Shown here: one piece after another, positions 10,354 to 32,330 of the stretch
Position numbering within the stretch: position 1 is the stretch's first letter
Layout: each line of letters starts with the position of its first letter
Source: Beroe ovata
Taxonomy: Eukaryota > Ctenophora > Nuda > Beroida > Beroidae
NCBI GenBank assembly: GCA_946803715.1
Contig: CAMPET010000099.1
Location: 70,804 to 111,429, forward strand
Direction of reading: 5' to 3'
DNA: 40,626 bases
Made by a program: the position numbers and the translations under genes
Notes under the pieces: generated by a model
Told to the model about the DNA's origin: nothing
The model's database searches: none
Seen by the model: the letters and a program-made list of their open reading frames with translations, nothing else

Positions 10354-13300
10354 ATGATTCTCCTCCCTCTTCTCTCCCTGAGTACCATCCTCCTTTTCAC
10401 CGGTGTTTCCTCCTCATTTGATATCAACACGACTGTCAGTGTGGTAACCCCGGAAACCAAACTCACTCTAAACCAGTCATCCTCCCTCACCATTCAGCTG
10501 GATAGGTGAGGGGAATTCTGTTCTCCCTGCACAGATATAATAGACAATAGACACATCATTCCAACTTATTTTTGACTCCATCCCGTCTCGGAATTTGACT
10601 TATCTTCTTGCACCACTGCTTTGCCCCTTGCGACTTGACACCACTCTTTTTCCCTCATACAGGTTAACGGACGAAGATCTCGTATTCAACTGTACACCAA
10701 GCAGTGAGGCCAGGATATCGCTCGAGAACGGGAACATAATAACGGTACGATGTTTAGACCGATAGAATGAAATGACAGGAAATGAGCCACACCCATAACA
10801 CCACCATAGTTCACGGGGTTATGGCAGGCTGCCAGCTCATCATAACCCAGTCGTCATCTTGGTCACCATGGTAATACTAACTGCCAGTAAACAACACGTT
10901 GTAAATTAGGCATGTATTCTTTTCGATCGTAGTACTGAAATCCAAAGTCTTATCTATAGAGTTGTATGGGTATACTGCAAACATAGCAAAATACTGGATA
11001 TCGATTTTCTAATCCAAGGATTGACATAAGAGAGGGAAGAATCTAAACTGTGAATCATCAGCGGTTACCCTACAGATGTAAGGCCCTCTCCTGTCAACTG
11101 CGATGTGGATCTCAGTATCAGCAGGTGGCAAGAGAGAACGGAGGAGTTTCGGCCCACCGTACCCCTCGCAGCTTACAACTGCAAGGCTGGGCCACCCAGA
11201 ACTCCGGAATTCTGAGCTTCACAGTTTAGAGAGACGGGGGGATTGGAGATAAGAATCAATGGAGGGGAAGAATTGAACTGAATAAATAAATNTAACACGG
11301 GATTAACATCATGAACAATATCATAATATGCTGGATAAGTGAATATTGTGTCATTTTCTCTTTGGCTACACTCACTCATACACAAACATACACACACTCA
11401 TACACACATACATTGACACACACACACACACACACACAAAGACTCATCGCGGAAGTTCATCATGTTTCTAAAAAGCAGCTGAGCGTCATAACAATTGATT
11501 TTCTTGGAACAATGTCTTTGTTATCGAGAAGAGGTGTACTTCTATCTTTGATAAATTCCATGATGAAGCAATTTCCAAGAACTGCTTCAACAACACGACA
11601 GATTATTGAGTCAATATTGAGTCATCTATTTCCGTCATTCGAACTTACGCAAATTAAGCGAGATTAACTTAACAAACGAAGATTTTCGGAATAATATTTG
11701 GATGTTATTACCCGCAGGTTAGGAATGCCACCAATCACACGACTGTGGGCATTACTGCGGGCGTGAAAGGCGGCACTTGCTACCTGAGCACGGTGATGAT
11801 TGAACCCGCGGGATTGGGTCTCAACATAACAGGTACCAGCTGATGTTGCTTCTGCGGGTGATTTATTATCTCAGGGATCGGAAATGATGTAGCTTAGATA
11901 AGACAATTAAAGAGTAGGATTTGATCCTCTTCTCGGTAGAAAAAGTGGAACATTAACGAAGGGTATTAAGTTGTGATATCCATGAACACAGAACGTTGTT
12001 CGGTGAAGCAGTAAATACACGGGTTAACAGGACATGTTTCGCTAATAATAATAAGCTCATCGCCTCATCAGCTGTCTCAACTTTGATTGTATAAAGTAGT
12101 GTTTCTTGAGCTGTTATTGTTAACATCTCTTCTCTCAGATCTGGACATGTCAGTGGTACACTCAAAGCCGTTGGAGGTTTTCATATCCATACTTGGCTGG
12201 ATATGTTTTGCTATGTGGTCCCTATCGTTTTATCCTCAGATTGTCAAAAACTGGAAGAGAAAGAGTGTTGTCGGTACGTTGATAGCTGGTGTTATCTATC
12301 AACTATGACGAATTTTTCTGTTAATCTATGTATTATGTACCTAATGCACCTGACCTTAGCGGAAACCCACTCCTACGCAAGATGTAACTTCACCTCTGCT
12401 CTGTTTTTGCCTCTCAGTCATCGTGTCTTTTCCAGGTCTCAGTTTTGACTTCCTCGGATATAACACACTCGGATGGATTTGTTACACTGTCTTCAACTTG
12501 TCTCTACTCTGGGTGGATCCAGTGAAGAGACAGTACTACGAGACATACCCGCACGGAGTGATCAATGTCCAGATCTCAGATTTCTGTTTCTCTGCCCACG
12601 CCCTAGTACTCACACGTAAGTAGAACAACGCACCAAAAATCCCTTAAATTCGGAGTACCTAAACGCTTTAAAATCGATAATAATCTTACAAGAACCTGAA
12701 AATATATACTGACGTCATTTCTCTCCATCTGCCAGTCCTTACGATTGCTCAGTGTTCGATTTACGATAGAGGAGGACAAACTCCAAGCTTCCTTTGCAAA
12801 GTTATCTTTGGAGGTAAGATATCAGTGGTTGAAATTGGATCTCGTTTGATTGATCATTTAACATCGGTATCATCTACCAAATGATAGGGTGGCCAATTTC
12901 ATCCTGCCCATACCATGTCCGTTCTGCCCATACCATGTGATCTGGTTCAGATCAAACACATCAGACACCAAAACTCGGCTGATACGTTCATATGGCTCAA
13001 TGAGATTTGCACACCCTCTTCCCCTTTCAGCTGTGATATCGGCCATGGTTATACTACTCATAGTGACAGCCTCCTGTTGCATGACGTGGTTCCAATACGT
13101 GTCCTTGTTCAGTTACGTCAAGCTTGCTGTCACACTCTTCAAGGTATTTACATCAGCTGTGACATATAAATTGCAGGGATTGTGCCGAGATGTTCACATG
13201 ATCTGAACAACCAGTACCATTGACTTATCGATACTCCAACTTTTGCAATTTGAACAAATAAATGGGAAGTTTTATCAAATTCAACACTTCCACCCAGGCC

Positions 13301-17400: not shown

Positions 17401-20400
17401 TAGTGACTGTTTACAAGCAGGAGGAGAAGCAGCCACCACCGGTTAGTGACAACTGTGACAGTGTGACAGTGTGACACTGCAGTGCTTTGTTTTACTGTAA
17501 CGACTGTGACACTGCAGTGCTTTGTTTTACTGTAACGACTGTGAACTGCAGTGATGTGTGACACTGCAGTGCTTTGTTTTACTGTTGTTAGAGACAACTG
17601 CAGTGATCTTTGGTTGAATTGCACTGCAGCGGTGTTTGTGGATTGGAGGGGGCTATAACAGATGTCAGAGCCAACTTCTATTACTACTGTTATCATTATC
17701 CAATTCTACACTCATCTCTATTCAACTGCAGTAGCCAGTACTCATGCTCAAATCCAAGGTGACATGGTGATTTGCATGGGTAATTGAAACTGTGATATAG
17801 ATCAATTAACAGTCATACTCGTGATTATACCGTCTAATTACATTCTCACCTCACACTTCATCTTACCCTGGATCCTATATCTCACGAGAGAATTGGCGGA
17901 CTGTTGACCAGCAATAACCAATCAACATGCTCCGTCTCACATATCGGTCAATCTGCACGTGTAGTTGATTGAGATCCAGTGCAACAACTGCACTATTGCA
18001 CGGTAACCATGACGATACCCAATCATCAACAAGCTTGCTTGTGTTGTGCTGTGTGAGAGAGAACGTATAAAAACTGCACCGGCAAGATGTGGAATATGAG
18101 CTGTTTACAGTTACCGCAGTTTACCTCAAGATCCGAGCAATGCAACATCCATCTCTAAGTCATGATACCATGGCATCCTACCCTGGTCTCCAGTGTGCAG
18201 GACTACCTCCAACTAACATGATGCAGCCCCCATTCCATACCCCCACCACTCCCTCTCCCCCCTACTCCAGCCCCACATCTGCTCTACAGCACTTCTCATT
18301 CAGCCCCGACACCAACATGCCCTACCCTCCTCCTCATCCGCCGCCGCCAATCTCGCCACTCCTCGCCGCCCAACAACAGCCGCCATGCACCTGGAACACT
18401 GAGCAGCCTGAGCGCCGGCTGGCGGTGAACGCGCGACAGCGGAGTCGTGTCCAGAACATGAACGAAGCGTTCCGGGCTCTCAAAGAGAAAGTTCCGGGTC
18501 TAAACGAGGAGGAGCGGACGTTTAGCAAGCTGGAAGTACTCCAGTGTACGATATCCTACCTGCAACACCTGTCCAAAGTGTTGGGTATAGAGCGTCGCGA
18601 GGGTGACAGTCAGGTGAGGGAGAGGGTGGAGCAGCTGGAGAAGAGATTCGTGGTCCACGGAGCCGGGGTGAAGAAACGAGGAGTGAAGAGGAAAGCAGGG
18701 TCATCGCCCGACCCGTACTGAGGTCACCACTTCTGGCAAGGAACACGTGGTCAGGAACAAAAACTGAAGTGATTAGTGACCACGTGGCATTTTGACAAGG
18801 AACACGTGGTTAGGAACAAGAACTGAAGCGATTCTGAATTAGTTTTCATGCGGATAAATTTGCTATATGTAACAGAAATGGAGGAAAATATGTCGTGAAG
18901 TGAATTTGTCGTGAGGTGAAATGTACATGTACCTCGAGATTTTATACTATTCCAAAACTTCTGTGTTTGATGTTCCTGAAATTGCTTAAACCAAGTCTCA
19001 TAAACATCCCTCTCACTGTAATAATGTCCATTGAGTGACATCACTCTTATTGACAGTTCATCGCCCTACAGAAAGAAGTAGAGAAGAGTAAGGAAGGCGG
19101 GAAGAAGAAGACGCCCCCGCCTCCCCCGCCCCCTCCACCCCCGCCAAAATCAGGCACGCTAGTCAACACTCCAACCCCGACCAAGAAACACCCTCTAGTG
19201 GCGACCCCGGTGGTGTCATCAGCCTGGGTAAGAGCTACACGCTGATATCTATAGTTTTCATAGATCATGATTGTGGATAAGGTGAGATTAATCAGGTGAT
19301 TAACAAGTCAGGCCTTTATCCGACACATATCTGCAATTAGGGCCGACTAATAAGGTCATGTGAGATTGTGAGAGCATGATACAATAGGACTACTGAAATG
19401 ATCGTCTATGATCGTCTATGATCGTCTATGTAATTCCTGTAGAAGCAGCGTGACCACGAGTACCCCTCTTCTCGAACCTCCTCCTCCACGAACCGACGCG
19501 GGCTTTATTACCAACAGGTTCCATCTTCATGTATCTCCCTTTCATTTGCACGTGCTAGTGCGCGGCGCGTGCACTTGGCGACTGCGCGCGCGACTGCGCG
19601 CGCGGCAGTAAATTTGCTGTGCATCGCTCTCTGTATAATTCTGTTGCTGCTGTCAATGTGAATACTATCCTTTCTTCTTATCACTAAGACACTTACCACT
19701 GCCTTACAAGCTCTGACTCTAGAGTCTAGAATTCTCTGATCTGAGATCAAACTTGAGACAACGTTGAAACACTATGACTAAGCAAGGAATTGATAGCTAG
19801 AACGCATAACCCTTGTTATGCAATTTGCATATATGGCACTCTGACAGATTGGCAGAACCTATAAATCCACTATAATAGGTAATTCATTTTGATAATTATA
19901 TCAACACAGCTCGATCATTCGCTGTCCTTGTACTCACACAGTCACAGCTGCATCTATTTTCGACTGCACATTCTCATTGAAACAATCACATGAATTCTTC
20001 AAATGTGCTTACTACACCTTCAATGTATCCTTGATTGCCTTATCCCCGGTTAAGTCTATCTTTAAACTAGAACATAGCAAAATTACCCGCCATTCTAGCC
20101 CGCCATTTCCCGCCAATATCTAACACCCGTCCACTATCCCAGCAGCAGTTATACACGCCACAGTCGCCGTCAACGTCGCCCGCGCTGGGGCACCCTGTAT
20201 CCTACCCAGCGTACCACGCGTTCCTCTCCCCCACCCATAGCTCGCAGTACGGCAACTCCCAGTTCTCCTCTCCCCGACAATTCCCCTCACCACTCCCCCC
20301 TCACTCACCCTCACCAGGGAGTCTGAGGAGCCCGTACTACGGGAGTTATCCAACCCCTCACTCACCGGGCATGGGTGAGTAGTGAGTGCTCTTGAGCTAT

Positions 20401-20722: not shown

Positions 20723-21320
20723 AGAGGAACATGATCAGATCTTCCCGATTCCCGGCCGTGAAGCTGAAATTACACTTAACCGCGGAATCGATGTAGCTGA
20801 GATATTCCTGATCCTCTGTAAATTGGGTCCCGGGTGCGAAAGTACCGTTCTCCACCGAACAGTCCAATTTCAGTGATCTCTATTAGATGAACTGATATAG
20901 ACAAACAAGTCGAGCTGACTACTGAAAAATGAAAAAGTAGATGAAGTGAAACTTTTAGTTTTAAAATGTTTTACGTTTCAATTTACCTTTAGACATTGTT
21001 CAATGTCCACAGAAGGACTTCTGTCTTTAACTTTTACGTGCTTTCTGTTTTACCCAAGGATGATATTTATTCCGGATCAATGGAAGTATTTTTGCTTTGT
21101 TTTGCTCTGCCATTTGATGTAAGTGTAACTATCTTGATATTCTTCATTGTGCTACTATTTGATATTAATGGATGGTTCAATATTTCAATTGATAAATGAA
21201 AAGGTCGTTTTCGTTTGTTGACGAATCTGGTAAATTTGAGTCTGGAAATTCATATCTATCATCGCTACTCAAACCCAGGCCCCAGGGCTACCAGTACCTA
21301 TTAAAGAGAGGCGCCCAATC

Positions 21321-21430
21321 TATAGGTCTAGTTCTACAACCACTATAGGTTTAGTTCTACAACCACTATAGGTCTAGTTCTACAACCACTATAGGTCTAG
21401 TTCTACAACCACTATAGGTCTAGCTCTACA
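21321..21430. repeat. 23-bp tandem repeat, about five copies
   Basis: The unit TATAGGTCTAGTTCTACAAC plus CAC is repeated head to tail with only one or two changes (one copy has TTTAG). The last copy decays into TAGCTCTACAGCA. No spacers, so it is a minisatellite. Confidence 0.9.
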
Positions 21431-22237
21431 GCACACTAACCAATAGTATACAATTTAGAGTATACCAAAGCCTCCAGAGCTAATTTCCATTGGCAGGTAT
21501 TTACTTTTAGAGAAACTGGTTGGTTATTGTCGGTATAATGCGCGCAGTCTAACACGTGGAGAGAGTACGAATCATCATCGTGGAACTTGCGGTAAATTCC
21601 GTAGACAAATTATCGATGGCAAGTCTCCACATTGAATTTCAATATGGATCCACAATGTATCAGTATGCACCTTGGTTAATGTGCACTGTGCAGTGCACAT
21701 TGTTGAGCGAGATACTTAATCTTGATGCTTCCCATCGATTCAGAATTCACCGCAGGTTTCGAGATATTATCCCTCACAGAGTGCTGTCGCACTAAAACAA
21801 CGCGCGCGTTCCGGGCCACGTGCTCTGTGTTCAGCGAACCAATCAGGAGATAGCACACGCGTGCCGCTACGATAGACAGCATATTAATGGTCGTCTTGCT
21901 CCGGCAAAACTGACTTATCTCGTCCTGCCAGTTGTCCTACAATGGGCGTTATTTCGCAATACCATAATTATATGATCTTGCCAGCTGTTTTGCACGTGCA
22001 TTGACAATGTGTGAATAAGAATTTGCCTTGATGCTTGAAGTTGAGGTGAATTTCGTGAGCTTTTTTTTGTGTACACACGTTGCGTGCCCCTCTTCTACTC
22101 TGTGAACTGAAATGACGCGGCAGGTTGGGTCATGCAACGTGGGAAAATTTTTTGGCAAGTCACAAAATTCCATTCTGACACGTAGACAGGGGGGGCCAGG
22201 GGGCCGCCCCCCCCCCACCCCCGGAAAAATTGGACCT

Positions 22238-22528
22238 CTGACGAAAATTTTCAAGGACTTCGCCCTTCCATGCAGAACTTAACGCCTGGCTTCTGGGGGC
22301 TGCGCCCCCAGACCCCTGCTTCTACTTTAAATTGAAGGAGCACATTGAATTAAAACGACATGTGATACTGAAATATTACTTTATACTACAATATGGTGTC
22401 GTTCTATATCAGGGCAGTGCCCCAAGACCAGTGTAACGAAGCAATAAATGGAAAATTCTGAAGGATTTCACCTTATCGAACAGAACTGAACCTCTGGCTT
22501 CTGGGGGCTGCGCCCCAGACCCCTGCTC
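22238..22528. repeat. Two copies of a dispersed GC-rich repeat
   Basis: About 85 bp at 22238-22322 and 22451-22528 share GAAAATT-AAGGA, CAGAACT-AA and the CTTCTGGGGGCTGCGCCCC hairpin followed by AGACCCCTGCT. Such CCCC-loop repeats are typical of short interspersed elements. Coding capacity is absent. Confidence 0.65.
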
Positions 22529-23823
22529 CTGATTATAAAGGTGATACTCAGCTTTTGTTTGGATATCTCATATCGGTGGCACTGCCCTAAAACCACTACA
22601 TTTCCATTGCTACGACAAACAATAAAGGGATAAAAGCCATGTTTTTTGCAATTCAAATGAGTATCTTACGCCTCAGATCATCACATTTTCTTCAGTTATT
22701 CACTCTTGCAGAACTTTTTGCTCCTCTTATTTCTGTTACTGTGATATTTTCTTACATACCAGATTTCTTCTGCAAAACTCTATTCTCAAAAACGTTTCTG
22801 TAAAGTGCATATTTTTGAGCCACATTTAATTTAATGATGAATATTCAGGCTTCAGCAATATGCCAATAGAATATGCAGTTGCACTGCACATTCTATTGGC
22901 AATTTATTATAATTGAATCTTGGGGCTACCGGACCACGTATTGTTAAGCGAACCAATCAGTAGCAAGCAAGCGCCGCGAAGGTAGACAGTTGATTATGTT
23001 TTGGTTGTCTATAGCTGCCACTGTTATTTGACAAAACTAATAGTAAAAACTTTATTTCTAGATGTCATACACCTCTATATAGATAAGACTTTGGATTCCC
23101 TGCAACCAGTCTTGGAACTCATGATCTGCCGAGTGTTTTTGCACGTGTGCAGCTCAACTGAGTGATCCGTTGTTTCAGTGATAAGCCAACTTAATGCCTA
23201 TATCATATGCCGGATCAGCAACCATGGTTTGACAAATGACAGCTTCATGTAAAGGCGCCATGGTCGCTCTGAGGCCTTATCCCTTTAATTCCAATATCCA
23301 CGTCTAACATAACGGTACTTTTCATTCTTCACTACAGTACACTGTCAGTCTCGAAAAGCGTAGTAACCGTAACGCAAACGGTTGCCATTTTCTCTCAACT
23401 ACCCTGCATAATTCGGGGAATTCAGTGATACTGATAAGCAAAGATTACCTGATAGCTCAAATCGAAATGGTCGCATCATTTATAATCATGCTTGTCAAGG
23501 AAATTGCGATAACACAGAAATAAGAAAAGCTTATCTGCACTGATAAAATGGAATTGGCTTATCATTTCTCATTCCAGCTGTTGTTGGTGATGTGGGGAAT
23601 AGAATGTCGAGATACTATCGACTGAGACACAAGTTTTGCGCTTAGTCAGTTGCAGTTTTGCGTTTTTTCAGTTTGAGTATTTTCTGACTTTATAACTATC
23701 CTCTTCAATTCCATTCAAAATTCCTCACTTACTATGAAATTTCTCCTTTTTCAAATCAAGTCTTATCACTTGCACTAATAATCATTTTCGTCTTACAGCG
23801 ACATTTAATTGGGACAGCAACTA

Positions 23824-25947
23824 ATGGCAACGATCAAAGTCACAGAAACCTGTGAATTTACGGGGACAGTTGATTTCGAGCAGTTCAATATCAACCAAAA
23901 CATCCAGAAGAAGTATGGTGAAGAAACAATTTCCACAGTCAAGCAGATATTCTTCATTATCTTGGAAGACTGGATGTACAATTACAAGAAGCTCTACACC
24001 GCTAATCACTTTAGCTCGCTTTTTGACCGAATCCTGGATCTAGTGACGAGGAAGAAAGTTCTGGACTTTCTCCTGCCAGGGTTTCCCGCCAAAAGTTCAA
24101 ATGACGTCAGGAAAGTGCTCGGGACGAAGGTCGACTTCGGAGAGTTTATTGCTTTGCGAACTCTGATGAGGACTTCACGGAAGATAGAGAAGATCTACGA
24201 GCATGGAGTGCTGATCACAATTCTGTCCGACTACCACACCTTTGACCAGTATGTCGGAGTAGAGGAAGAGGTGTATAGGGAGTATCACGCTGGGTTGAAG
24301 TCAATGATAGCGGGTATGGGAGGTGAGGACACCTTCAGGGTGGTCAGCCTAGCTTCATTCCCAGAGTTCATGGACACCACATCGAGGAACTTATCCAGGA
24401 AACTGAACGACGATTACGGTCCCGGGGACTTTGCCAGCAGTTTTGATCAGAAAGTGAAGGAGGATGCAGCCCTCTTGGAGCGGTACAAGCAGATGAAGAA
24501 ATTTATGACAACGGATCTGGCAACGAGACTTCCCAGCAGCTCACCAAACTCAAGGACGAACCGGAAGTTCCTGAAAAATGTGGTTGTCGGCATGATGGAG
24601 CAAGGAAAAGCTCTGGATTCCTTCCTACAGCAACAGAAGATGCTTGTCGATTATATCCGGATCAGTATTCATGCTCACCACCCGAGTAAAGGCAAGTTCG
24701 CAGTTGACCTATTCAATACATGTGCCTCAACAGAAGATCACATTCTACGAACACCCTGGCATCATACTGTTCTATTCAACACAGAGGTGGATGCATTTGA
24801 AATTGGGTGGAAACAGGATTTCTTGCAGGCCGAACAGGAGGGAAGGTCTAAATCTGTCATCTTCACCGTCTACTACGATGACAGTCCATGGCTCCTATTG
24901 AAGATGATTGTCAATGATAAATTAGATTTGGAGTTACATGAAGATGACTTATCCATTGACCTTCTCAAACAAGGCAGCGGAATGATAATCACCAACACCT
25001 CAGAGAACCCAGATTTGCCGTCCAGTGTGATAGACAAGGTTACCCTGACCTCTCTCATCAAACACTTTGGACTAGTTGTGTTGAAGGGGTTCAAGCACTT
25101 TTCCTCGGAGAGGGAGTTGTATGACCAGTACACGGGTAACTCATCATCGGGTGCACTCCCTTGGAAACATGGACCAGTCCACAAGGTCAAGTTTATTAAT
25201 GGAGAACCCGGTATTGTAAACAGACGGGGACCACTTCCCATGCACTGGGATGTCTCCTTTCCCCCACCTTACATGGGCATTTCACAGAAACAGTACAAGT
25301 ACGAAGACTTCACTCCACGGGAATTTCTTCTCTACTGTCACAAGAACTCAAAAACTGGAAAGAAAGGACCCACAACGTTCGTTGATGCTATCGGCGTAGC
25401 TCTGAGCCTGCCTGGGCACTTTGCCAAGAAATGGGAAGAGACAGAGCTGTGTTACGAGAGTAGACTCGTCAACCACGTCACAACTCCTGCATCCGATACG
25501 AATTTGAACTGCAATGGGGACACCAGCAAGAAGCAACTCTATTTCGGAGGGAAGGGGCACACTTTCAACTATCCACTCATCATGGCCTGTCCCTGGACAA
25601 AACAGCCTGTTCTCCGATGGCAGGAGATGTGGAGCCTGGCAGAGCAGCCGAACACCGTACAGGAACAAGTCTACACCATCGGCAAGCACCCAGCTGAAGA
25701 CAAAGCCAGCTCAATATCCGAGCTAGAAGAGGAGATCAAGAAGGTAGCCCTGAATGAGAGGTTCTTCATGAAATACACTGCGGAGGAGGGGGACCAGATG
25801 TATGTCAACAACTACACCACGCTTCACGGGAGGGAGTCCTTCACCAATGAGAGGGAGCTGTGGAGGGTACAACTCATCCCACCAACCCAGAATGTTCCAG
25901 AATACTTCAAGAAGTTCGCGTTCAAATTCTACGATGCACATCACTGA
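23824..25947 (+). CDS. Isocyanide synthase (DIT1/PvcA) fused to a TauD-type Fe(II)/2OG oxygenase
   Basis: Single-exon 707-residue bifunctional enzyme. Residues about 20-335 match the isocyanide synthase family (PvcA, IsnA, yeast Dit1), which turns the amine of an amino acid, usually Tyr or Trp, into an isonitrile using ribulose-5-phosphate. Diagnostic blocks are LLPGFPAKSSN (83-93), KVLG (97-100), DFGEFIALRTL, YIRISIHAHHPSKGK (about 277-291) and TPWHHT (310-315). Residues about 390-690 are a TauD/PvcB-like dioxygenase: MHWD with iron ligands H474 and D476, GPTTFVDA, TLHGRESF with the distal H668, and RELWRVQL with the likely 2OG-binding arginine. PvcB/IsnB-type enzymes act on the isonitrile product. 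The open frame begins at 23809 but the first ATG is 23824; an acceptor-like TCTTACAG ends at 23798, so a 5'UTR intron is likely. No other biosynthetic gene adjoins it. Substrate is not visible from sequence. Confidence 0.88.
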   Translation: MATIKVTETCEFTGTVDFEQFNINQNIQKKYGEETISTVKQIFFIILEDWMYNYKKLYTANHFSSLFDRILDLVTRKKVLDFLLPGFPAKSSNDVRKVLGTKVDFGEFIALRTLMRTSRKIEKIYEHGVLITILSDYHTFDQYVGVEEEVYREYHAGLKSMIAGMGGEDTFRVVSLASFPEFMDTTSRNLSRKLNDDYGPGDFASSFDQKVKEDAALLERYKQMKKFMTTDLATRLPSSSPNSRTNRKFLKNVVVGMMEQGKALDSFLQQQKMLVDYIRISIHAHHPSKGKFAVDLFNTCASTEDHILRTPWHHTVLFNTEVDAFEIGWKQDFLQAEQEGRSKSVIFTVYYDDSPWLLLKMIVNDKLDLELHEDDLSIDLLKQGSGMIITNTSENPDLPSSVIDKVTLTSLIKHFGLVVLKGFKHFSSERELYDQYTGNSSSGALPWKHGPVHKVKFINGEPGIVNRRGPLPMHWDVSFPPPYMGISQKQYKYEDFTPREFLLYCHKNSKTGKKGPTTFVDAIGVALSLPGHFAKKWEETELCYESRLVNHVTTPASDTNLNCNGDTSKKQLYFGGKGHTFNYPLIMACPWTKQPVLRWQEMWSLAEQPNTVQEQVYTIGKHPAEDKASSISELEEEIKKVALNERFFMKYTAEEGDQMYVNNYTTLHGRESFTNERELWRVQLIPPTQNVPEYFKKFAFKFYDAHH

Positions 25948-26428: not shown

Positions 26429-26434
26429 AATAAA
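26429..26434 (+). terminator. Candidate poly(A) signal of the isocyanide synthase gene
   Basis: AATAAA about 480 bp after the stop codon, in AT-rich sequence. It is the first canonical signal I see downstream, and fits a eukaryotic transcript rather than bacterial DNA. Confidence 0.4.
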
Positions 26435-28459
26435 ATCTATCCAACCAATCAGGTGTCTTCACTTATCTCAAAATGCTTGATTACTTGATGGTTTAGCCGG
26501 AAGGCGGATCATCATTGACATTCCTTCATCTGTCGTATCAGCTTCCTTGAACCCTTTGGAGATATTTTACTAACCCCACTTCAATCCTAGGCATGGATGT
26601 AATGACTAGCAGAAGCAACTGCACTACAGTTCGAAAAGAGGTCACGTGATGCATCTCTTTCCAGAAACAGGGAAATGGGGGATTGCTCATTGCACGACAC
26701 GTGGTAAAAGCATGAGCATGGAATACATATGATAAGTGAAGCAGATCATTCTCTACGATTTGAAAAGGACACACAATACTAAAACTGTCTTATTTGAAGG
26801 TAACTTGCTTTCTCTTAGGACACGTCATGGAGATTGAAGAAGTGTATGATGAATGAGGACTGAACTTGGAAACGTGTTAATGTTCATATATTCAGGTTTC
26901 ACAGGTGATGAAGAGTGAAGACGGATGTGAAGTGCATCTTGGAGGCTAAATAATCGTCGATATCCTGAAATGCTGGATGAGAGTAAAGAGAGACATTGTA
27001 TACTTCATGACTTGAGCTAGGAACTCGCGATTGGGCAAGTAACACCTCATCAACACTTGTGCTATGGCAGGGAAATGGAATTTTATGATGAATGCGCCAT
27101 GGACTGAAATGTCGACCTAAAAATAGGGTGACAATAGGACAATATTCGATAAGGTTTCAAGCGAGTATATGCTTATTATTCCAGTGTCATTCACTGTTGG
27201 TACCTGTGTTATGTGTATGACTCATTTTATTATTTATGCGCCGGAAACACATTTTTCTATTCAGCATTTCATAAAATGGTAGGGACGGCTGTCAGAGTTT
27301 GCATTTCTTTTGAATATTTCGGTTTACACAAAAATGAAGATTCACTTGTCAATGTTGTTGATGTTGAGTTTTGAACGTCTCATGCTTTGAGGGTACTGGA
27401 GGGTACTTTGATAGCTTAGCTTTTTCTAATAAAAACGTCGTTTGATTTTCTCACAGCTGTCAATATAAGAATATAGAGTTAAACGGAGCCTACCTATAGA
27501 TGCTGTTACAATATTCCTTCATGCTAACGTAATAATCAGCACCCATACTTTAATTTTAGCGTGCGAAATTTTCATAAGCCACCTGTGTGACTTATAGTAG
27601 TTAGTGTAGAGCATTCCTTTACCTAGAGGACCATTACCTATTCAATAAGTATTACTCTTGATAGACCATATTAAAGAACCGTAGCGCAGACTCGTACGAT
27701 TCCCAATCTCAGATGGATTTCTCGGACTATATCGCATCTAATTTGAAAATAATGACATGTTAACAACCCTTGGAGGAATGTTAGTAACCCTACACAGGTT
27801 CCAGACACCTACGTCATACTACTTGCTGTACTATTCGCTCATCAATGCACGATCAGCTGTAGTAAGCTGCGCGCGGCTGGTCTCATAGTCATAGAACTGT
27901 CATCTGACAACAGTTCCATGCTGACATGCTATCCAAATACCTGTCCTTACACGCGTGTCATCAGTCTATAATATTAATAATGCTGTGCTATGAATTTCAT
28001 ATCGAGTCAAATGAGTGTATAGGTATGTTTTCAACGTAGCTTTACTATAGGTAGGTAGGTACCTACTACTTGTGATGAAAAGTGTACTGTTGGTAGGTAC
28101 CTACCTTCATTGTACATCACAGTTCAGTGCGTTTTGTCTTGCATGTAGCTTGTAGGTAGGTCCCAAGTTCATACTTCATACCTTATCCTATACCTAGGTC
28201 CTAGGGGTGACGTAATTCACCCCATGTACCGCGGAAGTAGTGCATGACGTGACCTGGTATTTTCCTGGTTGTATACCTACACAGACACCAGGACGCGTGT
28301 GATGACACAACCAAGTTGCAGATGGTGTGAATGTCATGATGTGTGATGATTTAGCCACGAAACAGAAGTGGTATGAGTCATACTTTTGTACACGCATATT
28401 CACATAGGTACTCATGCGACGGAAACATAATTTCTTGCTATTTTGCTCGTGAGTGATGA

Positions 28460-28518
28460 GTCGCCAGTGCCCAGTCGCCAGTGCCCAGTCGCCAGTGCCC
28501 AGTCGCCAGCGCCCAGTC
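28460..28518. repeat. 14-bp minisatellite, four copies
   Basis: GTCGCCAGTGCCCA repeated four times head to tail, the last copy with one change (AGCGCCCA). No spacers. Confidence 0.9.
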
Positions 28519-28946: not shown

Positions 28947-30113
28947 ATGACGTCATCACAACAAATCACCACGGGGCTATCCACTCCTCCGGACTATGAA
29001 CTTGTGACCACATCTTCCCGAAACGGGGGCGGCGGGGACACAAACCACCACGATCCCGATATGATCACTCGAGGTGACGTCACAGCTGGTGGAATCTTCC
29101 TACTGGTCCTCTCTTTTGCATCACTCCTTATCAACGTGTACCTGCTCTTTTTGGCGGGAAAAAACTGGAGAAAACTCCGAAAATCGTCGTATTTCAATAC
29201 AAATGTGCTGTGCTTGGTGTTAGCCGTGGCTGATCTAGGATTGGCATTGCTTGTGGCGTTGCCAGCAGGCGTACATATGACATGGGTTGATCTGTTTAGA
29301 CAGATGGACGGAATGATGTTCCACTCAAAATACACGGGTTTTGTGATATTCGAGTATCTGTTCCTGCTACGAATTGTGCTGCTAGCGGTACTAACAACTG
29401 ATAGAGCAGTGAACTTTGTGAGATCTGTCAACCACACTAGAATTGACACGACAAGTGGACAGATTAGATATGGGATGCTAGCCGTGGTTGTGTTTTTACC
29501 TCTCCTCGCAAGAGCCGTCCCAAATATCATGTTTCTTGTCACCAATAACGGGAACATTCTCTGCAAACACTACATTGATAACACAGTCGGTCTCACGGAC
29601 ATGAACCGGACCAAATCACAAATTGTCCCCCTCACATGCAATGCAGTGGGTGGACGAGCTGAAGCCACTGCTGAACTGGTGATAGTGGCAACATTCACGA
29701 CAATATCGTGGATTCTCATCACGAGTTCTAACACGGCTATACTCCTGACTACGTTGAGACGGGGAGTATACAAATCCGCGATGCACACCAAAAACCAGGA
29801 TAAAGCAAGGAAAATGAGGAGGAAGCTACAGTTCTACGTGGTGATCATTTCGGTGACATTTTTCATAACAAACTTCCCATATGTGTGCATATGGCTGGCT
29901 GATTATGTTCATTCTTACATGCATTTCAGCCGCGATGCCCGAATCAACCCGGTCACGAGGTTTTATCTCACTCTCCTCATCTTCCTGTCCTTACTTTTCG
30001 ATCCGTGGCTATACCTACTGAAGATGCTACCAGTGAAAAGTGTTTGGCCCTGCAACTGTCGTAAGGAAGAACCTAAACCGAATAGAGCGAAGCAACATTA
30101 TAGCATCGTCTAA
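28947..30113 (+). CDS. Rhodopsin-like (class A) G-protein-coupled receptor, single exon, orphan
   Basis: 388-residue seven-helix receptor. The N-terminus (1-43) is hydrophilic. Helix 1 (about 46-70) has the conserved N63; helix 2 (about 86-107) has LAVADLG with D96; helix 3 ends TTDRAVNF, a DRA version of the DRY motif at 152-154; helix 5 lies at about 243-268; helix 6 carries FFITNFPYV with the conserved proline; helix 7 ends FDPWLY (351-356), a DPxxY variant of NPxxY. The cytoplasmic tail has WPCNC, possible palmitoylation sites, and ends YSIV, which fits a class I PDZ ligand. No cysteine sits at the usual top of helix 3, so the common disulfide to loop 2 is absent. Ligand unknown. The ATG at 28947 is the first in frame. 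Confidence 0.8.
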   Translation: MTSSQQITTGLSTPPDYELVTTSSRNGGGGDTNHHDPDMITRGDVTAGGIFLLVLSFASLLINVYLLFLAGKNWRKLRKSSYFNTNVLCLVLAVADLGLALLVALPAGVHMTWVDLFRQMDGMMFHSKYTGFVIFEYLFLLRIVLLAVLTTDRAVNFVRSVNHTRIDTTSGQIRYGMLAVVVFLPLLARAVPNIMFLVTNNGNILCKHYIDNTVGLTDMNRTKSQIVPLTCNAVGGRAEATAELVIVATFTTISWILITSSNTAILLTTLRRGVYKSAMHTKNQDKARKMRRKLQFYVVIISVTFFITNFPYVCIWLADYVHSYMHFSRDARINPVTRFYLTLLIFLSLLFDPWLYLLKMLPVKSVWPCNCRKEEPKPNRAKQHYSIV

Positions 30114-30872: not shown

Positions 30873-32330
30873 TCAGTCTATCATATTTGCACGACGCGCG
30901 CCCAACCACGCATTGAAAATAACCTTAGAATAAAGTATACAACACTTGTTGCTACACCAATATTTCCCTCTCGTTGCTTCAGTTGTTGCTTCCTCATAGC
31001 AACCCTCGTGCAAACAGATCAGTTTCAGGTTGCTCTTCCTATCGCTCGTAGGCACAGCACTCTCTATCTTTCTCAAAGGGGGTGGCGGTGTCGACTCTTT
31101 TATCACTTCATGTTTCAAGGCTTCCGTTTTCTTCGCTATGGGAGGGGGTTCTGACGGCTTCTCTTCTATATCCATAACTGAGGGTAAGTCTAAGTCATCG
31201 CTTCCCTTTTCCGTTTTATAGTGGAGCGGAGTGGATTTAACACTGTCTCCGCTGTGCTTGCTTTTCTTCTTGAACTTGAGTGGTGGAAGGGAGGACGGAA
31301 TGGCTCCATCAAGAGGATTCGATTTCTGTTCGGGAAGTGTCCAGTCAGCGTCTTCCATATCGTAATCCTCGTCTACATCGAAATATTTCCGTTTTATATT
31401 CCGTTTCGGATAATTGTAACCTGAATCGCTCTCCTCCTTATCTTTCGAGGAGGTAACTTCTGACTTGGAGGGGACGGTGTCACTCTTGTCTTCAGTAGGA
31501 GATGAAGTTTTGGAAGTAGGAGATGACTGTTTTGTACTTTTCTTCTCACTCTTGGACAACTGCTCAGGAGTGATGATCCCTTTTTTCAACTTGTATGCGT
31601 CACTGTTACGAATGTAGTGATTCTTCTTCGGTATATCGAGGCTGTCCCAAATACTCTTTACTTCTTTAGCCATCTCTTTCTCAGACATGCCTGGCCTTTT
31701 CTTCATCAGTTCGGGCCTTTTTTCTTCCAGGAATGCTCCGAAACCAGTCTGAGGCTTTTTATCAGACTTATCTGTGCTACTTTTCTTTGAACCCGACTTC
31801 TTCTTCTCAACAGGTGGTGTCTCATTTCGTTCTTCCTTTGAACTACTGATTTTTGAGAGTGGGGCGTCATCTTCAGAGCTCGATCTCTTTGTTTTGGGGG
31901 TTGAAACTTGTTCTGAAGTACTGGGATCAGCTTTTCCCGGCTTGCTACTCAGTTTATCGAACAGATTAGACGGCTGAGACTGTTGACTTGGAGCAGGTGA
32001 TTGTTTAACTGGTGATGCGGGTTTTACCGGAGAAGTGGCTGTCGGAGCGGCACCCGTTGAGAGGGTTTTAGGCGTAGCGGCGTCACTACCCGACGCCTCG
32101 GACTCAGCAGCCGCCTGCGCCACATACTTCTCCACTACTCCGGGCGGCGCCATGACAGTCACGTGGGCTATTGTCTGCTGATTGGGTAATGTCAGGACCT
32201 TGACAGGGCCCGCAAGAGTGGCGCCTGGTGGCAGATTTATCTTCGCCACCTGACCGCCTCCTATGTCAATGGGGATTGCCATAGTCGTTCGCACCATCTG
32301 TGCGTTTCCATTCTCTATGTTCTTAGCCAT
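30873..32330 (-). CDS. TOX4: TOX4-like HMG-box nuclear protein
   Basis: 485-residue protein in one coding exon. Residues 1-75 are a hydrophobic, glycine- and proline-containing segment without a known domain. Residues 76-193 are S/P/K-rich. Residues about 194-256 form an HMG box (GFGAFLEEKRPELMKKRPG, then IWDSLDIPKKNHYIRNSD). A long charged, disordered region follows. The C-terminus (about 436-480) has a cysteine knuckle with C439, C444, C459 and C463, followed by VIFNAWLGAR; this C-x4-C ... W/Y-C-S-N-x-C ... F-x-A-W arrangement is characteristic of TOX4 in the PTW/PP1 phosphatase complex. Basic YPKRNIKRKY at 307-316 is a likely nuclear signal. The ATG lies 3 bases after TCTCATTCCAG, a strong acceptor-like site, so a 5'UTR exon upstream is likely. 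Other HMG-box families are possible but explain the C-terminus less well. Confidence 0.7.
   Translation of the reverse strand: MAKNIENGNAQMVRTTMAIPIDIGGGQVAKINLPPGATLAGPVKVLTLPNQQTIAHVTVMAPPGVVEKYVAQAAAESEASGSDAATPKTLSTGAAPTATSPVKPASPVKQSPAPSQQSQPSNLFDKLSSKPGKADPSTSEQVSTPKTKRSSSEDDAPLSKISSSKEERNETPPVEKKKSGSKKSSTDKSDKKPQTGFGAFLEEKRPELMKKRPGMSEKEMAKEVKSIWDSLDIPKKNHYIRNSDAYKLKKGIITPEQLSKSEKKSTKQSSPTSKTSSPTEDKSDTVPSKSEVTSSKDKEESDSGYNYPKRNIKRKYFDVDEDYDMEDADWTLPEQKSNPLDGAIPSSLPPLKFKKKSKHSGDSVKSTPLHYKTEKGSDDLDLPSVMDIEEKPSEPPPIAKKTEALKHEVIKESTPPPPLRKIESAVPTSDRKSNLKLICLHEGCYEEATTEATRGKYWCSNKCCILYSKVIFNAWLGARRANMID

Follow-up and report, generated by a model that had tools for sequence, protein, structure and literature searches.

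Two-domain proteins that join an isocyanide synthase (ICS) to a dioxygenase are known in bacteria and fungi (PMC5974471), and the ICS-TauD arrangement accounts for 36.2% of fungal ICS proteins (PMC10153163). PMC5974471 gives as examples V. cholerae IsnAB, A. fumigatus XanB, and IcsB. In other described systems the two activities reside in separate proteins, such as PIsnA and PIsnB (PDB 9dh4, 9dhm, 7tcl), the latter from Photorhabdus luminescens (PMC9467999), or PvcA and PvcB of Pseudomonas aeruginosa (3e59, 3eat, 4ylm). Other eukaryotic holders of ICS listed in PMC5974471 are 10 oomycetes, one amoebozoan and one moss; the Discussion of the same paper (Lim 2018) mentions metazoans once, among the outlier holders of ICS homologues. 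Here, an intact DIT1_PvcA-TauD fusion gene is described in a stretch of 40,626 nucleotides from Beroe ovata (assembly GCA_946803715.1, contig CAMPET010000099.1, positions 70,804 to 111,429), hereafter the window. Its product, P0001, is best explained as a bifunctional isonitrile enzyme native to the genome of a non-bilaterian animal, with a probability of about 0.72. The architecture itself is known; the kingdom in which it occurs here is unexpected. Among the titles and abstract starts covered by a literature search, none dealt with an isocyanide synthase of an animal, and the main text of PMC4784904, on prokaryotic genes in Amphimedon, contained none of the six terms sought.

Domains and active site of the fusion protein

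The first-pass annotation had placed both halves in a single frame, and all the motifs concerned (LLPGFPAKSSN, KVLG, YIRISIHAHH, TPWHH, HWD, LHGR and RELWR) are present in the translation, whose start codon agrees with the N-termini of the relatives P0002 and P0004. The profile search that it proposed gave 167.3 bits against Pfam DIT1_PvcA (PF05141; cut-off 26.4; E 6.4e-49) and 57.3 bits against TauD (cut-off 27; E 3.1e-15); since both scores exceed the curated cut-offs, the matches are not due to chance. The NCBIfam equivalog model NF045653 (TyIsonSynPvcA) reached 76.4 bits (E 1.8e-21) against a cut-off of 600, and P0001 is not assignable to the L-tyrosine isonitrile synthase PvcA equivalog. 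A sequence search of the PDB at E<=1 returned four distinct sequences, namely two PIsnA, PvcA and PIsnB (7tcl). By structure comparison, the predicted N-terminal half has the PvcA/PIsnA fold, and the predicted folds of the two halves match PIsnA and PIsnB.

In PIsnB, the substrate ring is stacked by His101 and the carboxylate is anchored by Arg265, on which Trp74 stacks (PMC9467999). The HxD...H iron triad of the PvcB/IsnB oxygenases is complete in P0001 (H474, D476, H668), and both carboxylate anchors are retained as R681 and W447. P0001 thus shares with PIsnA and PIsnB the predicted folds of both halves, the triad and the anchors, but these are two separate proteins, 18-23% identical to it, and Lys107 of PIsnB is a proline in P0001. 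PvcA and PvcB, likewise, are separate whereas P0001 is a fusion. With IsnAB, XanB and IcsB it has in common the presence of both domains in one polypeptide; P0001 differs in lying in an animal genome, and the likeness described here is one of architecture.

For the synthase half, 21 positions were picked from columns invariant in an alignment, so that agreement is circular for the rows of that alignment. Proteins outside the selection agree with P0001 at 16 to 19 of the 21: Hymenobacter at 16, ICS1 of Burkholderia stagnalis and P0025 at 17, two Streptomyces proteins at 18, and the B. stagnalis fusion and P0023 at 19. The nearest relatives, P0002-P0017, keep all 21 positions except for one Ser to Ala change in P0008; they also keep the HxD motif and, wherever the region is covered, the distal histidine and the arginine.

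Relatives, bacterial fusions and phylogeny

In a database of about 5.8 billion proteins, which would largely miss intron-bearing genes, 7994 candidates were scored and 22 of them were relatives at E<=1e-5; P0024 and P0025 were added by profile search. The closest are P0004 (66% identity, partial) and P0002 and P0003 (52%), followed by P0005-P0015 and P0017 (43-47%). We infer that these relatives are eukaryotic. The contigs that carry some of P0002-P0017 reach 3.8 Mb. The first-pass annotation had presented a host-encoded isonitrile enzyme in an animal as new; the animal host stands, but uniqueness does not, as relatives of 43-66% identity occur on other contigs and metazoans are already mentioned by Lim 2018. 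In P0021 and P0022 the ICS-TauD fusion is followed by a long C-terminal extension, and one of the two has a weak EF-hand-like match below the cut-off. We take these two to resemble dinoflagellate proteins.

A scan of an 84,980-species bacterial and archaeal collection with two peptide patterns found ten fusion loci, all gammaproteobacterial (Algicola, Pseudomonas, Marinomonas and Vibrio) and 26-34% identical to P0001. In seven of them, from Vibrio and Marinomonas (L004-L007, L009, L010, L012), no more than one of the three iron ligands remains in the fused TauD half. All five loci scanned for it (L004, L005, L006, L009, L010) have a TauD gene of its own upstream of the decayed fusion, the open reading frames of L007 and L012 are arranged in the same way, and a FAD_binding_3 gene is found nearby in three of three (L004, L005, L006). 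A decay from enzyme to scaffold is possible in these fusions. Unlike them, P0001 belongs to the kind with an intact oxygenase, as do the fusions of Algicola sagamiensis (L003) and Pseudomonas spelaei (L011), which keep the triad and are 33-34% identical to P0001 but are 65-84 residues shorter and fall on the opposite side of the tree. In the P. antarctica fusion (L008) HxD is retained, and the distal end is not readable in frame. A gene for a sigma-54/ACT/PAS regulator and one for a hydroxyphenylpyruvate dioxygenase lie near the Algicola fusion, which points weakly to tyrosine. Plasmids gave 12 records with relatives at about 25-28% identity, and searches of viral contigs and phages found none. 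One plasmid of B. stagnalis (L030, 1535-11125) has what looks like an isonitrile natural-product cluster, with genes for two ICS proteins, one single-domain and the other fused to TauD, and for a UbiA prenyltransferase, a methyltransferase and an efflux pump.

The main tree (32 rows, unrooted, without fungal ICS-dioxygenases) places P0001-P0004 in a clade with support 100/100, nested with P0005-P0015 and P0017 in a 16-row group (96/92). Next outside come P0016 and the long-branched P0020, and then P0021/P0022. The 12 gammaproteobacterial rows, made up of the ten loci together with P0018 and P0019 (counted here from their position), are separated from the side of P0001 by a 99/98 branch. Constraining P0001-P0004 with the bacteria was 50.5 log units worse (approximately unbiased test, p 0.001), and constraining P0001 alone 107.4 log units worse (p 1.4e-05), the constrained groups having been named after the tree was seen; recent bacterial transfer of the fusion gene was rejected by these tests. 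In an unrooted ICS-only tree with outgroups (39 rows), in which long branches meet and only well-supported groups were used, P0001 falls in an 18-row clade (100/100) and P0021/P0022 are unplaced. The trees argue against recent bacterial transfer and give no date for the family. In the comparison with bacterial, fungal and metazoan hits proposed at first pass, P0001 stands apart from its bacterial relatives; no fungal ICS-dioxygenase sequences were recovered for the trees.

Genomic setting

The gene is almost certainly host-encoded. The window is free of N from 11293 to 36272 (single Ns at 11292, 36273 and 38781), so that the assembly links the fusion to animal genes on both sides. The neighbourhood is animal-like, as had been claimed, with a basic helix-loop-helix (bHLH) gene, a rhodopsin-type G-protein-coupled receptor (GPCR), an HMG-box protein and a galactosyltransferase gene (Pfam), and no test run points to a contaminant. 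A search of the genome (77.8 Mb, 534 contigs) gave a single match to the P0001 protein and a single match to DIT1_PvcA. Codon usage was too noisy to be of use, with correlations of -0.21 to 0.35 within a set of six window genes and of -0.12 to -0.05 between the fusion gene and three bacterial fusions.

Both regulatory signals named in the first-pass annotation are present in the sequence (Table 1). The downstream AATAAA stands as described; no donor-like site matching at least eight of nine consensus positions was found in 22001-23790, and therefore an intron in the 5' untranslated region, and with it the use of the acceptor-like site, is unproven.

Table 1. Coordinates of the fusion gene, its predicted functional residues and neighbouring features in the window
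Feature	Position	Strand	Remarks
Intact DIT1_PvcA-TauD fusion gene	23824..25947	+	707 aa; ATG 23824, TGA 25947; no internal stop
Isonitrile synthase half	23911..24906	+	residues 30-361 by structure; Pfam 72-322 = 24037-24789
Fe(II)/2-oxoglutarate oxygenase half	24937..25899	+	residues 372-692 by structure; Pfam 405-682 = 25036-25869
W447, equivalent of PIsnB Trp74	25162..25164	+	alignment to 7tcl, hand-numbered; PMC9467999
H474-W475-D476, iron-binding HxD	25243..25251	+	PIsnB His101-Trp102-Asp103; 7tcl alignment
H668, predicted distal iron-binding histidine	25825..25827	+	7tcl alignment
R681, equivalent of PIsnB Arg265	25864..25866	+	7tcl alignment; PMC9467999
Acceptor-like site in 5' leader, unproven	23785..23798	+	TTTTCGTCTTACAG, ends at 23798
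AATAAA polyadenylation-like signal	26429..26434	+	starts 482 bases after stop
Single-exon bHLH gene	18164..18718	+	Pfam HLH 3.1e-12
Single-exon rhodopsin-like GPCR	28947..30113	+	Pfam 7tm_1 5.8e-07; 29.7 bits, slightly below cut-off 30.5
HMG-box protein exon	30873..32330	-	Pfam HMG_box 1e-06

The GPCR has a single database relative, P0026 (51% identity, on a 2455-base contig), at E<=1e-5 among 7997 scored candidates. On the same strand as the bHLH gene, at about 19058-19228, there is an intron-bearing, proline-rich gene (splice signals by eye) that appears either to enclose or to adjoin it. Short tandem repeats occur at 21320-21434 and 28447-28516, with units of 23 and 14 bases, and the window had no match in Rfam or in a tRNA scan. 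Elsewhere in the genome, an Antennapedia homeodomain query matched 19 places at E<=0.001, of 39 scored, in a six-frame, intron-blind search that may miss split homeodomains; the best match over the full domain was 46% identical and the best partial one 56%. Among the 12 loci read, we regard the QVK-[TI]-WFQNRR types as ANTP-class from their residues. Identical homeobox matches at C33:106141 and C457:3285 are possibly a leftover haplotype copy.

Proposed chemistry, alternatives and meaning

What is observed for P0001 is its domain content, its predicted fold, the retention of active-site residues, an uninterrupted frame, the genomic neighbourhood and the place in the tree; activity, substrate, product, cellular place and a biological role in metal binding or chemical defence may be proposed. 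P0001 is probably a catalytic isonitrile synthase-oxygenase, and that it performs isonitrile chemistry is likely. The N-terminal half would combine the amine of an aromatic amino acid with ribulose-5-phosphate to give an amino-acid isonitrile, L-tyrosine being the most likely substrate and tryptophan a possible one; that the substrate is one of these two is only slightly favoured. The C-terminal half would then grip the amino-acid isonitrile by its carboxylate and desaturate the side chain, with a vinyl isonitrile or an isocyanoacrylate as the product.

Several observations weigh against this reading. P0001 is only about 17-23% identical to characterised enzymes, and the CpG observed/expected ratio of its gene is 0.58, compared with 0.71-0.85 in five other window genes, a small difference without explanation. 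In PIsnB, position 107 forecasts the product type, Lys/Arg for the PIsnB type and Leu for the PvcB type (PMC9467999); the equivalent Pro480 fits neither rule, and therefore the product type is not predicted and no subtype is claimed. A second subtype position, 188 of PIsnB (Asn/His or Cys), falls in a stretch outside the alignment to 7tcl. Furthermore, CrmA yields a valine-derived isocyanide (PMC9381783), so that homology to ICS is no proof that the substrate is aromatic. The last two points also favour an oxygenase half with another reaction, such as hydroxylation, or the use of a non-aromatic amino acid to make another isonitrile, as does the difference of S478, F479 and Pro480 from the PIsnB pocket M105-Y106-K107; with the carboxylate-fixing R681 and W447 retained, this is unlikely. 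A Dit1-like role is a little less probable still. Dit1 forms N-formyl tyrosine through a postulated isonitrile intermediate (PMC13005658), and P0023, a yeast-type Dit1 by resemblance, agrees with P0001 at 19 of the 21 ICS positions, so that the isonitrile could be merely an intermediate and an N-formyl amino acid the end product cross-linking a structural layer. However, P0023 has no oxygenase half, whereas that of P0001 is intact and PIsnB/PvcB-like, the two proteins belong to separate well-supported groups of the ICS tree, and the Dit1 isonitrile is itself a stable natural product (PMC13005658).

The remaining alternatives are far less probable. A non-catalytic or decaying enzyme would have its precedent in the seven bacterial loci with a lost triad, but the frame and residues of P0001 are intact, and P0002-P0017 keep the residues to the extent given above. 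The presence of the same fusion in four bacterial genera makes a contaminant or a recent bacterial transfer conceivable; against this, which we consider the most improbable explanation of all, stand the N-free linkage to animal genes, the low identity of the bacterial relatives found and the rejected groupings.

The first-pass annotation had also connected the gene with the isonitriles of sponges, and this link is not supported. Marine isonitriles are mostly terpenoid, and in sponges their carbon and nitrogen come from cyanide; alanine, glycine, leucine and arginine were fed and none was incorporated as precursor, tyrosine and tryptophan not being among those fed (PMC4728513). Since the enzyme class uses amino acids, the P0001 gene is a poor candidate for those terpenes. 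Terpene isocyanides are, in addition, treated for demosponge orders, and among sponges a collagen IV basement membrane distinguishes the Homoscleromorpha (PMC8398655); the genome holds 12 matches to the collagen IV C4 domain, 10 above cut-off, which points away from demosponges. Neither the genome nor the controls showed a match to the terpene synthase family PF19086.

In the literature covered, isonitrile synthases have been characterised solely from bacteria and fungi. An intact, host-encoded fusion offers a single-gene hypothesis, testable by expression, that some animals may themselves make isonitriles from amino acids. Such a route would stand apart from the cyanide-derived isocyanoterpenes of sponges, raising a new question and leaving the old one unanswered. 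If the relatives prove eukaryotic, the family would be broader across eukaryotes than in the survey of PMC5974471. More tentatively, and with considerable doubt, animals may have retained an old eukaryotic ICS-oxygenase family with which they make their own amino-acid isonitriles, for instance for copper binding or defence, and P0002-P0017 may include further animals; if so, this would be a wider metazoan pathway, so far unstudied.
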